This document shows, in pieces, positions 7,628 to 37,352 of a stretch of DNA of 49,378 bases. The number at the start of each line of letters is the position of its first letter. Positions within the stretch are counted from its first letter, which is position 1. Position numbers and translations under genes: made by a program. The notes beneath the pieces were generated by a model. The model was not told where the DNA came from. It was given only the letters and a program-made list of their open reading frames with translations, and searched no databases. Source of the stretch: a bacterium (GTDB lineage Bacteria; Cyanobacteriota; Sericytochromatia; S15B-MN24; VGJW01); contig JAJXWQ010000018.1 of NCBI GenBank assembly GCA_021781555.1, positions 1 to 49,378 of the forward strand, given 5' to 3'.

Positions 7628-7816
7628 GCGTTCTCCCATCGCAAAGAAAGTGGGGCCGTAGCGGCGGCCTCACACCTTACAGACGGCCCGGCCTGCAAAA
7701 AGTTGACCAGCTCACAAGAACTCACGCGCGCAGACCTCAGGGCGCCGCCGCCGCGCACTCCGCCCCCGAGGCAGACCGACCGCCGTTTGCCCCGACGCGA
7801 GGAAGCCTCGGGGGCT

Positions 7817-32742: not shown

Positions 32743-34152
32743 GTGTCGAAGTATCGCAGCGTCTTGCTGGCCCTCTCTTTCACCATGACCAGTGCATGCC
32801 CGGCCTTCGCGCAGTTCGGGCCGCCGCTGCCGAAGCTCGACAAGAACGGCGCGGTGGCAACCTCGAGTGGCTCGGGGAACCTTCACGTTTACGTCGGTCC
32901 GGCCCTGGAGCTTGGACAGCAGACGGTGGTGATGCAGCAGACCACCACCGTGACTACGACTCCCAGCAGCATCAAGAGCGGCACGACCAAGTCGGACGTT
33001 TCCAAGACGGCCAGTCCCACCACGGCAGGTAGCGGCTCGGGGTTGATGCTGGGCGCCCGGTACACGTGGTGGATCGCGCCCAGGTTCGGACTGGGGATCG
33101 ACGAGTACGACGACCTGTCTCCGATCTTCGGCCTCGGCAGCCAATCGACCAACATCCTCCACCTGGATGGCCAGAATTCCTCGACCTACAAGGGGTCGCA
33201 GACCACGAGCGGGAACCTGACGTCCACCACCGATACGCAGACGACCATCGCGGTCACGCCCATGGCTTTCGGTTCGCCCAACTTCAACATCAACATCTCC
33301 AGCCAGGGCCCCGATTTTGCGGCCAATGATCCCAAAAGCACCGAATTCCAGACCGACTACGGGATCCAGGTGCCGGATCCCGTGGTCGGAGGGCAACAGG
33401 ATTTCACGCTGACCAGCGGAGATTCCTCCAGCAATCCGCAGCACGATCACTACGATGCCGCGGGCGGGCTCCAGGTGGCCAACTCGGATTCCGTCTGGGT
33501 CAACGACCTGGGGTTGACCGGGAATTACAGTCTGTGGCAAAGCGCGGGCGGATATCTCGGGCTCCTGGCGGGTATCCAGGTCCCCGTCGTGCGACAGCAT
33601 ATCGAATCGCTGATCCGGACCCTCGGCCCTGGCAACAAGCCCGGCGCTGCGATCGAAACCAAGACCTCCTTCGATGCGGCCGGGAGCCAGCAAGAAAAGG
33701 ATGTGACGAGCACGACGATCGACGACGACTACACGGCGGACGCGTTCGTGCTGGCCGCCGGGCCGATCGTGGGAATTTCCGGGGCCTACGGGATCTCCCA
33801 TGGACTCGATCTCACCGTGAAGGCAGGCTACGTGCCCGTCTTGATCGGCAGCAACTGGGGGAGCACGATGGGCCGGACCTCGGCCGAGGTCAACTACCAG
33901 GTGTTCAACGGTACCAGCACGTCCCCTGCCACCACGACCGACACCACCAGCTCCGGCACCGCTCCGGACACCAGCGTCGGAGAAGTCAGCGGCAGCGAAG
34001 CCCTGGCCTCGCTCGGGGTCGCTGGCATGGTCGGTCCGGTGGATCTGGGCGGCGAGATCGTGGCCAGGACCTACAACCTCGCGAGCGGAGTCAACCCGGT
34101 ATTCAACGACGTCGAGCTGGGCGTGCGGGTCTCGGCCAGACGATCGTTCTAG
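32743..34152 (+). CDS. Putative outer-membrane beta-barrel protein
   Basis: 469 residues from GTG 32743 (GAGG 7 nt upstream). The signal peptide is MSKYRSVLLALSFTMTSACP with cleavage after PAFA. Alternating strands (LMLGARYTWWIAPRFGLGI, YLGLLAGIQVPVV, LDLTVKAGYVPVLIGS) and a C-terminal VELGVRVSARRSF ending in Phe fit an outer-membrane barrel. Long Thr/Ser-rich loops (TTTVTTTPSS, TSPATTTDTTSS) are unusual. No specific porin family is recognised. The TAG stop is the edge of the next CTAG element. Confidence 0.7.
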   Translation: MSKYRSVLLALSFTMTSACPAFAQFGPPLPKLDKNGAVATSSGSGNLHVYVGPALELGQQTVVMQQTTTVTTTPSSIKSGTTKSDVSKTASPTTAGSGSGLMLGARYTWWIAPRFGLGIDEYDDLSPIFGLGSQSTNILHLDGQNSSTYKGSQTTSGNLTSTTDTQTTIAVTPMAFGSPNFNINISSQGPDFAANDPKSTEFQTDYGIQVPDPVVGGQQDFTLTSGDSSSNPQHDHYDAAGGLQVANSDSVWVNDLGLTGNYSLWQSAGGYLGLLAGIQVPVVRQHIESLIRTLGPGNKPGAAIETKTSFDAAGSQQEKDVTSTTIDDDYTADAFVLAAGPIVGISGAYGISHGLDLTVKAGYVPVLIGSNWGSTMGRTSAEVNYQVFNGTSTSPATTTDTTSSGTAPDTSVGEVSGSEALASLGVAGMVGPVDLGGEIVARTYNLASGVNPVFNDVELGVRVSARRSF

Positions 34153-34256
34153 AGTGCTCCCGGTTTGAATGGATCGAGCCCGAGGAGTCAAACGGGGCCC
34201 GGTTGCGCAGCGAAGCGACCGCGCAGAGGGCCCCGTTCAAACTGCAAAAGGCCTAG
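34149..34256 (-). repeat. CTAG element, full 108-bp copy
   Basis: CTAGAGTGCTCCCGG to CAAAAGGCCTAG, inverted relative to the 16346 copy. Its left TAG is the stop codon of the barrel-like gene. Confidence 0.93.
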
Positions 34257-34317
34257 CGCGGTTGCGCAGCACTGCGCCCGCGCAGAGTGACCCGTCCAAC
34301 TTCAAAAAAGATCTAAA
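34257..34317 (-). repeat. Degenerate half copy of the CTAG element upstream of flagellin
   Basis: It repeats the inner part of the adjoining element (CGCGGTTGCGCAGC, CGCGCAGAG, GACCCGTCCAACTTC) and ends in TCTAAAG where a full copy has CCTAG. The TAAAG forms the -35 half of a sigma-28-like promoter. Confidence 0.7.
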
Positions 34318-34340
34318 GCGCTCGCCGGACGTGCCGACAG
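34314..34340 (+). promoter_or_regulatory. Sigma-28-like promoter of the first flagellin gene
   Basis: TAAA, 15 bp, then GCCGACAG, compared with the flagellar sigma-28 consensus TAAA-N15-GCCGATAA (6 of 8 at -10). The -10 box ends only 10 nt before the flagellin ATG, so the leader would be almost absent and the CAGGA ribosome site would overlap the -10. This weakens the call, or means the transcript is nearly leaderless. Confidence 0.4.
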
Positions 34341-34350
34341 GAATAGCAGC

Positions 34351-35187
34351 ATGTCCATCCGCTTCGACACCAACATCGTGGCTGCGATCGCCCATCGCAA
34401 CCTCGAGATCAATACCGACGCGCTCAATACGTCGATCGAGAAGCTTTCGTCCGGGCTCCGCATCAACAGCGCATCCGACGACGCTGCGGGCATGGCCCTC
34501 AGCGAGCAGCTCTCCATGCAGGTCACGGGCCTCGGCCAGGCTCAGTCCAATGCCCAGGATGGCATCTCTCTGCTGCAGACCGCCGATGGCGCCCTTTCCG
34601 AGACGACGACCCTCTTGCAGAGAATGCGGCAGCTAGCGGTCGAGGCGGCCAACGACACGATGACGGCCTCGGATCGCGCCCAGATATCCGATGAGATGGT
34701 CCAGCTCTCGGCCGAGGTCAATCGCGTCTCGGACGACACCCAGTTCAACACCCGGTCGCTGCTCGCGGGCGGCACGATCTCGACGACGGGAATCACCCTC
34801 TTCATCGGGGCCAACGCCAGCCAGACCATGGTCGTGATCATCGGCACCGCCAACGCGGCGGCTCTCGGGGTCATGACGACACAGCTGTCGGTGGATTCGG
34901 CCCTCGATGCCAGTACCACCATTGCCAACGTGGACAAGGCCCTGGGGCGTCTGATGAACATCCGCTCCGGACTCGGAGCGATGGAGAACCGTCTCCAGCT
35001 TACCGTTTCCAATCTCCAGACCGAAAGCCTGAACACCTCGGCTGCCGAGAGCCAGATCCGGGATCTCGACATGGCCTCGGAAATGGCGACGATGACCAAG
35101 TACCAGGTTCTGCAGCAAGCCAGCACGGCCATGCTGGCCCAGGCCAACCAGGCACCGCAGTCGCTGCTGACCTTGCTCAAGGCCTGA
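34351..35187 (+). CDS. fliC: Flagellin
   Basis: 278 residues, ATG 34351 with CAGGA upstream. The N-terminal D0/D1 motif is canonical (IEKLSSGLRINSASDDAAGM, then AQDGISLLQTADGAL). The C-terminal D1/D0 is too (RSGLGAMENRLQ, then QVLQQASTAMLAQANQAPQS). The middle is short, so D2/D3 are nearly absent and the filament subunit is minimal. It heads a filament cluster with a second flagellin, flaG, fliD and fliS. Confidence 0.97.
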   Translation: MSIRFDTNIVAAIAHRNLEINTDALNTSIEKLSSGLRINSASDDAAGMALSEQLSMQVTGLGQAQSNAQDGISLLQTADGALSETTTLLQRMRQLAVEAANDTMTASDRAQISDEMVQLSAEVNRVSDDTQFNTRSLLAGGTISTTGITLFIGANASQTMVVIIGTANAAALGVMTTQLSVDSALDASTTIANVDKALGRLMNIRSGLGAMENRLQLTVSNLQTESLNTSAAESQIRDLDMASEMATMTKYQVLQQASTAMLAQANQAPQSLLTLLKA

Positions 35188-35284
35188 TCCTGCCTGGCCT
35201 GACGGCCCGAACGACGAGCGCGCAGGACCTGTTTTCGAGGGATCGTTTGTCTCTCTCGTTCAGAATCTCGCCTGGCACTTGTGC

Positions 35285-35361
35285 GTTATGTTCCGCGATC
35301 TGCTCGCGATCGGCGGCCCTTGGGCATAACTTTAGGGGTTATGTGGTAGGCTGACCATAAC
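35285..35361. promoter_or_regulatory. Cluster of four GTTATG/CATAAC hexamers
   Basis: GTTATG at 35285 and 35338, and CATAAC at 35325 and 35356. The pair at 35325-35343 forms a perfect 6-bp inverted repeat around TTTAGGG. These are AT-rich islands in GC-rich DNA upstream of the second flagellin, so they could be an operator. No regulator is known. Confidence 0.35.
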
Positions 35362-35555
35362 GGCCGATCTATGGATGGATCAGCCTGCAGACGAGTCCCA
35401 AGGGTAAGGGGGATTCGGGGTCGACCCAGGGAGTGGGTCGTCGGTCCCAACGCAAGGAGGTTTGTTAAGGGACACGCGATCGCGCGCGACCCGTCCGACT
35501 TCCGGACCAGGCATTCGAACCGGGTATCTATCCGGGTTCGTCACGATGGTTCCGG

Positions 35556-35700
35556 GATGTTCTGACGTGCCAGCGGCAGGATGCCGAGGCCCGGCGGGTC
35601 TCGGCGGACGTGCTGGCCCACGTCGAGTCGCGGCTGCGCGCGGCCGGCTTTGACCTCGATCCTGTAGGCCCCTTGCCCGCAGGAACCAGGCTCCCGCAAC
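35556..35700 (+). pseudogene. Possible remnant of a small gene before the second flagellin
   Basis: This frame reads DVLTCQRQDAEARRVSADVL and then AHVESRLRAAGFDLDPVGPL, with strong G/C third positions like the real genes nearby. No usable start codon follows the AAGGAGG at 35454, and the frame runs on into flagellin out of phase. It may be a decayed or frameshifted small gene, or chance. Confidence 0.2.
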
Positions 35701-35772
35701 CACGCAGGTGTCGGGAGGGGAACCCGCGCGGCCTGGAGATCCCGGGCCGCGCCACGGACAAGGAGGTCAACC

Positions 35773-36663
35773 ATGTCCATTTGGATCGCCGGCAATTCGG
35801 CAGCGTACCGGATCTGGGCCTATCTGACCGAGAATGCAAGGGCCGAGGCCGATACCGAGGCCCACATCGCGACCGGTCTCCGCATCATGAACGCTTCTGA
35901 CGATGTGGCCGGTATGGCCATCTCGCAGCGTCTGCAAGCCCAGATCGGCGGGCTCAACGAGGCCCAGCAGAACGTCCAGGAACTCACCAACATGATCCAG
36001 ACCGCCGAGGGCGGCGTGCAGACGATCGTGACGACCCTCGGCTCGATGAACACGCTGGCCATCGAGGCCGCCGGCGGCGCCCTCAGCAGCGCCGCGATCG
36101 ATGCCATCCAGCAGGAACTCTACTCGTATGCCCAGCAGATAGACAACACGGGCAAGTACACGTCCTTCAACGGCCACGAGCTTCTGGACGGGGGGGCCAA
36201 CGCGCCCAACGACAACGGCTTCTCGGCCCTGCTCTTCACGGCCCTGGTGGGGGCGAACCAGTTCGAGCAGATGACCTTCTCGATCGGCACGATGACCGCC
36301 GCGGCGCTGGGCATCCTCAACACGCAACTATCCGTCACCTCGGCGGCGCTGGCCTGCCAGACCATTCTCAACATCCAGAACGCCAGCAACCTGGCCATGG
36401 CCGAGGAAGGGCAGCTCGGGGCTTACGTCAACGTGCTCAACGCCCAGCTCTCGGTGTTGACGGTGCAGTCGTCCAACATGTCGGCCGCCAATGCCGACCT
36501 CACCAACCTCGACGTCGCCCAGGCGAGCCTCCAGCTTGCCGGCGAGCAGCTGATCGCCCAGTCCGCGACCGCGATGCTCGCCCAGGCCAACCAGTCGTCC
36601 TTTGGCCTGCTCAGCCTGCTGGGTGTCTCACCGTCTTCCTCGACCGCCGCGGCCCTCGGCTGA
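35773..36663 (+). CDS. Divergent second flagellin
   Basis: 296 residues, ATG 35773 after a near-perfect AAGGAGGT. The flagellin helices are recognisable: ATGLRIMNASDDVAGMAISQ in place of LSSGxRIxxAxDDAAGxAI, and QSATAMLAQANQSS at the end. The N terminus is altered (MSIWIAGNSAAYRIWAYLTE). A Ser/Ala-rich tail of about 20 residues (GVSPSSSTAAALG) extends past the usual C terminus. It may be a minor filament or junction subunit. Confidence 0.9.
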   Translation: MSIWIAGNSAAYRIWAYLTENARAEADTEAHIATGLRIMNASDDVAGMAISQRLQAQIGGLNEAQQNVQELTNMIQTAEGGVQTIVTTLGSMNTLAIEAAGGALSSAAIDAIQQELYSYAQQIDNTGKYTSFNGHELLDGGANAPNDNGFSALLFTALVGANQFEQMTFSIGTMTAAALGILNTQLSVTSAALACQTILNIQNASNLAMAEEGQLGAYVNVLNAQLSVLTVQSSNMSAANADLTNLDVAQASLQLAGEQLIAQSATAMLAQANQSSFGLLSLLGVSPSSSTAAALG

Positions 36664-36760
36664 CCGCCGATCGCCCTTCTCCCGACAGCCGACAAAGGCT
36701 CTGGCCAGGCTGTCGGGAGCCGCGGGGGGCACCGTCCTTGCCAGAGATTCGGAGGGACGG

Positions 36761-36849
36761 CTAGATTTTTTGCAGCTCGAAGCCAGGCAAAGCGGGAGCA
36801 CCCTAGGCCTTTTGCAGCTCGAACCATTCAAACCGGGAGCGCCCTAAAG
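36761..36849 (+). repeat. Two tandem mini copies of the CTAG element
   Basis: Mini copy A is 36761-36806 and B is 36803-36849; they share one CTAG. Each has only the ends (TTTTGCAGCTCGAA and CGGGAGC), with the central palindrome deleted. B ends in CTAAAG instead of CTAG. This is the pattern of internal-deletion derivatives. Confidence 0.8.
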
Positions 36850-36872
36850 ATCGCTTGCAGAGTGACCGATAT
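36845..36872 (+). promoter_or_regulatory. Sigma-28-like promoter upstream of flaG
   Basis: TAAA, 16 bp, then ACCGATAT (6 of 8 against GCCGATAA). The TAAAG is the last bases of the mini copy of the CTAG element. The leader to the flaG ATG is about 70 nt, which is normal. Confidence 0.55.
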
Positions 36873-36950: not shown

Positions 36951-37352
36951 ATGAGGATCGAAGGAACAATAGCCGTCACGGCGGCTGTCAGCGACCAGAT
37001 GCTGACGGTCGATGCCGCGGTGTCGAGCCAGGCCCGCGATCGCATCAACCAGGATGCCGAGCGCCAGCAAGCGCTCGCGAGCGCGAACCCCGTGGCGATC
37101 GCCACCGAGCAGCAGGCGGTGGGACCGAAGCTTCTGTCGAGCGCCGTGGAGGCGATCGAGCGTTTCCTCGAGGAGATGGACGACGGCAGCGTGGCACTCA
37201 GGATCAAGCTTGACGGCAAGCGGCTCGTCGTCCGGGTGGTCGACCGCAAGACCGGGAAGGTCGTGCGCGAGCTCCCCGCCCCGCATTTTCTCCGGTTGCT
37301 GGCGGCACAGGACCAGCGCATCGCCGGGCTTTTCGTGGATGAGCACCAGTGA
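36951..37352 (+). CDS. flaG: FlaG-family flagellar protein
   Basis: 133 residues, ATG 36951. The C-terminal half carries the FlaG pattern: LRIKLDGKRLVVRVVDRKTGKVVRELP followed by a short Leu-rich helix. FlaG proteins influence filament length or stability; their mechanism is not settled. The N-terminal half is Ala/Gln-rich and less conserved. Position between flagellin and fliD is usual for flaG. Confidence 0.9.
   Translation: MRIEGTIAVTAAVSDQMLTVDAAVSSQARDRINQDAERQQALASANPVAIATEQQAVGPKLLSSAVEAIERFLEEMDDGSVALRIKLDGKRLVVRVVDRKTGKVVRELPAPHFLRLLAAQDQRIAGLFVDEHQ

Follow-up and report, generated by a model that had tools for sequence, protein, structure and literature searches.

Short intergenic repeats end within the -35 boxes of putative sigma-28 promoters upstream of the flagellin gene fliC and of flaG in the window (the whole 49,378-nt stretch of DNA analysed here), and the boxes are probably ordinary sigma-28 (FliA) promoters that predate these MITE-like repeats, which would have landed at the TA within CTAAAG. 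As a genome of the same genus (G001) has the signals at flaG, and at flgM outside the window, without the repeats, the promoters were most likely already in place when the repeats landed on them, and an apparent promoter co-option is thus reversed by comparison with a relative. The window belongs to a 3.8-Mb draft genome whose beta' subunit (1877 aa, with a long insert), taken together with the kinship table, suggests that the organism may be a non-photosynthetic relative of the cyanobacteria.

The repeat family and its target site

The repeat is about 105 bp long and non-coding, with many similar copies dispersed over intergenic gaps. Using nhmmer, we obtained 108 matches in 410 kb of sequence, stretches mostly picked as rich in the element, and 37 matches in 261 kb picked without regard to it. 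Among 40 full copies, the left end was CTAG in 32, TTAG in 6 and CCAG in 2, and the right end CTAG in 32, CTAA in 2 and CCAG in 2, with four single variants. Written as Y-TA-G...C-TA-R, most of the variation at the ends falls on the base outside the TA, which, read towards the element, was C or T in 94 of 96 consensus-matching ends (end-match scoring was calibrated on 60,000 shuffles, of which 0.005% reached a score of 10 and none reached 11). The left and right tetranucleotides of one copy are often unlike (TTAG/CTAG), a mismatch that a TA duplication allows and a four-base duplication does not. At two sites, the rpoC stop codon (window 16450) and L099:16469, CTAG and one of the two flanks are present in G001 but this element is not; the tetranucleotide at the element end is therefore host target sequence, and the repeat targets TA within CTAG/YTAR. 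At L099:12957, TTAG is kept in G001 with no end of this element beside it, although a decayed, older element is possibly situated beyond it. The G001 comparisons yielded no clean two-sided empty site, and we infer the TA duplication itself. Searches of five further genomes from the order (G002, G003, G005, G006 and G009) did not detect the family, and a scan of genome contigs for element ends returned one other assembly only, on two contigs, with the records of the window genome possibly left out of that scan. At L091:3468-3783 (G000:C44), at least three identical element copies stand head-to-tail with shared CTAG junctions, and a second short repeat family, of about 75 bp, is represented at L099:16583-16664, with dozens of copies in G001 that are roughly 90-96% identical.

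IS630-family elements insert at TA with TA duplication, and IS630 prefers CTAG, according to PMC2170065 and a title in its references; examples of IS630/Tc1-mariner insertion sequences and their MITEs are ISY100 (PMC2170065) and Nezha (cited in PMC10969869). The repeat shares with them the TA target and the CTAG preference of IS630, and differs in that its two ends resemble each other only partly and in that the only DDE_3 element detected in the genome carries different terminal repeats; for the latter reason we file it as MITE-like with an IS630-like target choice and not as an IS630 MITE. No transposase with ends matching the repeat was found. The single IS630-type element (L116 610-2131; G000:C164) is bounded by CTAG on either side, but its 26-bp terminal repeats differ from those of the intergenic repeat, and it was rejected as the source on that ground.

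Promoter boxes at fliC, flaG and flgM

Table 1. Flagellar genes, element copies and putative promoters in the window
Feature	Position	Strand	Evidence or remark
fliC, flagellin, 278 aa	34351..35187	+	Pfam Flagellin_N, Flagellin_C
flaG, 133 aa	36951..37352	+	Pfam FlaG
Full element copy, CTAG to CTAG	34149..34256	+	upstream gene terminates at the first TAG of this copy
Second element copy, partial, decayed	34253..34316	+	nhmmer E=4.9e-11; right-end score 11
Putative sigma-28 promoter, fliC: CTAAAG, TAAA-N15-GCCGACAG	34313..34340	+	kept from CTAAAG to ATG in G001
Short, internally deleted element copy, weak	36761..36806	-	seen in sequence; nhmmer E=0.052
Short, internally deleted element copy, about 42 bp	36803..36847	-	left-end score 20; nhmmer E=2e-4
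Putative sigma-28 promoter, flaG: CTAAAG, TAAA-N16-ACCGATAT	36844..36872	+	boxes kept, spacer diverged in G001

The original prediction had described two decayed copies (34257-34317 and 36803-36849) ending in TAAAG, with a -10-like box following at 15 or 16 bp, and its letters, coordinates and spacing proved correct (Table 1). Upstream of fliC, the second copy has its CTAG in common with the first, runs as CTAG(34253)...GATCTAAAG and ends at CTAA within the -35 box, with TAAA at 34314-34317, a 15-bp spacer, GCCGACAG at 34333-34340 and the ATG at 34351. Upstream of flaG, the better-matching copy (CTAG(36803)...GCGCCCTAAAG) likewise ends at CTAA within the -35 box, followed by TAAA at 36845-36848, 16 bp, ACCGATAT at 36865-36872 and the ATG at 36951. 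A third case lies outside the window on contig C4, where an element copy (nhmmer E=4e-28) abuts the CTAAAG of TAAA-N16-GCCGATAA ahead of a putative flgM, identified by its own sequence and by the following gene, read here as flgN.

Taken as motifs alone, the boxes carry little evidential weight, and what makes them convincing is conservation. A genome search for TAAA-N13-18-CCGATA returned three matches (flaG, upstream of flgM and one within an open frame) whereas the reversed pattern, run as a control, returned four; the bare motif is therefore not significant. The motif match on C98, which lies within an open frame, was taken as chance. At a stringency corresponding to these boxes, a scan of the window gave three sites where 0.8 were expected. 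G001 retains both boxes, -35 and -10, at fliC, flaG and flgM: at fliC almost the whole stretch from CTAAAG to the ATG is kept, at flaG CTAAAGATC and CCGAYATGCGATCTGGGAG flank a diverged spacer, and at flgM the spacer has also diverged between the two boxes. The genome holds a single FliA gene (TIGR02479, 258.7 bits; cut-off 189.6), as does G001 above the same cut-off. Conservation of boxes and spacing, the FliA gene and the third case at flgM thus support the predicted sigma-28-like character of the boxes, which we treat as putative promoters. Eight genomes of the order also have a sigma-28-like motif upstream of flgM, three of them with TCAAG instead of TAAAG. Strict CTAAAG...CCGA boxes were not found at the four flagellins on C99, and for the flagellin on C50 a "TAG inside" proved to be merely a stop codon.

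The E. coli sigma-28 consensus is TAAAGTTT-n11-GCCGATAA, and the E. coli aer promoter reads TAAAGATA-n11-GCCGACAT (PMC2859248). The boxes described here share with these promoters TAAAG, the 15-16 bp from TAAA to the -10 box and GCCGAYAW, and the flaG -10 box of G001 is identical to that of aer. Unlike the E. coli promoters, the three here have repeat DNA upstream, and the fliC message would be almost leaderless. The fliC -10 box ends merely 10 nt 5' of the ATG, a position that implies either such a message or a different promoter. It is conceivable, although we consider it unlikely, that only the boxes at flaG and flgM serve as promoters and those at fliC do not, with fliC transcribed from elsewhere and the -10-like GCCGACAG belonging to its ribosome-binding region: the implied leader would be only about 3-6 nt, AGGA overlaps the -10 box, and the flagellin promoters of relatives sit 79-99 nt upstream, whereas G001 keeps CTAAAG and TGCCGA at fliC but not AGGA.

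Order of promoter and repeat

The original prediction further held that the -35 boxes were decayed CTAG ends and that the element had donated them, so that element ends decaying from CTAG to CTAA would have created new sigma-28 promoters at flagellin and flaG. Such a donation would account for the coincidence of element end and -35 box at three promoters, and element-made promoters are known from Neisseria (PMC2649163). The close-relative comparison that the prediction itself had proposed speaks against it: G001 has the same CTAAAG...CCGA at flaG and flgM with no element end there. At flaG, homology begins at CTAAAG and no trace of an element precedes the G001 promoter; at flgM, the G001 promoter has no element end at its -35 box and the gap gave no significant element match (E=0.25). 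CTAAAG-type boxes also occur at flagellar genes in G002, G003 and G006, where the repeat family was not found. Moreover, CTAG joined to AAG would read CTAGAAG, from which CTAAAG would need a further mutation. The simplest account is thus that the flaG and flgM promoters predate the repeats; the TAAA fits host target sequence better than a decayed CTAG, and donation appears very improbable. This order is limited to flaG and flgM, because the G001 fliC gap also holds an old decayed element of its own (E=1.6e-06), which does not visibly reach the -35 box; at fliC, donation may therefore still have occurred. On present evidence, the repeat neither supplies a promoter box nor is needed for one. In the 5' leader of flaG in G001 (L005 1380-1485; G001:C58 near 7711-7787), a different element copy lies between promoter and gene; the window has none at this place.

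Under the preferred reading, in which the repeats landed on existing promoters, a small non-autonomous MITE-like element would insert at the TA inside YTAR sites, with CTAG preferred, served by a transposase acting in trans and duplicating the TA. The -35 box of this clade, CTAAAG, contains the YTAR site C-TA-A; on insertion, the C would stay on the element side and TA with the native AAG on the gene side, and an insertion at this TA therefore keeps TAAAG and its spacing to the -10 box. The promoter would outlast the insertion with FliA-dependent transcription, and the element copies would decay afterwards. A single simple insertion does not explain fliC and flgM, since element copies there leave almost no other sequence between the upstream stop codon and the -35 box.

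Small MITEs that target TA can produce chimeric promoters, as illustrated in Neisseria by the Correia repeat enclosed elements (CREE) and their Black and Snyder promoters (PMC2649163). CREE resemble the repeat described here in being about 105-155 bp long, intergenic, inserted at TA and directly upstream of genes, with the junction between element and host falling inside a promoter. CREE supplies one box of a sigma-70 promoter, whereas in the present case host sequence appears to make up both boxes, which are of the sigma-28 type. A target site inside the -35 box would offer a concrete mechanism by which mobile repeats sit harmlessly on promoters, and the same effect may underlie other claims of repeat-derived promoters where TA-targeting elements are common.

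Whether the repeat prefers these promoters is a separate matter. We counted seven CTAAAG-N-CCGA candidates in the genome (flgM, fliC, flaG, one each on C97, C136 and C152, and one antisense in the window), three of which have an element on the upstream side. For comparison, an element abuts 3 of 62 noncoding TTAG/CTAA sites in stretches picked without regard to elements, and 13 of 91 in an element-rich sample that includes the three promoters themselves. The resulting binomial P of 0.003 to 0.065 indicates mild enrichment at most, because the candidate set was assembled after the pattern had been seen and the coding mask was rough. It is an even call whether chance suffices, with a GC-rich genome full of YTAR-ended repeats placing some of them beside CTAAAG by no preference for promoters; all three abutted sites, however, lie upstream of core flagellar genes and have conserved boxes. 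Chance in this sense is compatible with repeats landing on existing promoters and denies only a preference. In support of the landing reading, one copy, in L093, terminates at a CTAAAG that no -10 box follows. The stronger proposal, that the element favours the flagellar -35 CTAAAG because this box includes its target, which insertion rebuilds, and so cuts promoters off from upstream DNA without breaking them, is one we entertain only tentatively and find somewhat doubtful.

Further signals near flagellar genes

A TPR-type gene (L083, L078) has a conserved sigma-28-like box in the window genome, G001, G002 and G003; it adjoins a flagellin cluster in G002 and is possibly a flagellar accessory gene. 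On the minus strand of the window, at 35310-35335, a conserved sigma-28-like motif (CTAAAGTTAT...GCCGA) is directed antisense towards the 3' end of fliC, and G001 has one too. An Rfam search of the window returned one tRNA and nothing else, leaving the leader of the second flagellin without a match. The gap of about 590 nt upstream of that gene (window 35280-35772), which may contain a promoter as well as a structured leader, is well conserved in G001; GTTATG/CATAAC motifs recur in it, and it includes a conserved stretch, GGTAAGGGGGATTCGGGGTCGACCCA...GGTCCCAACGCAAGGAGG.
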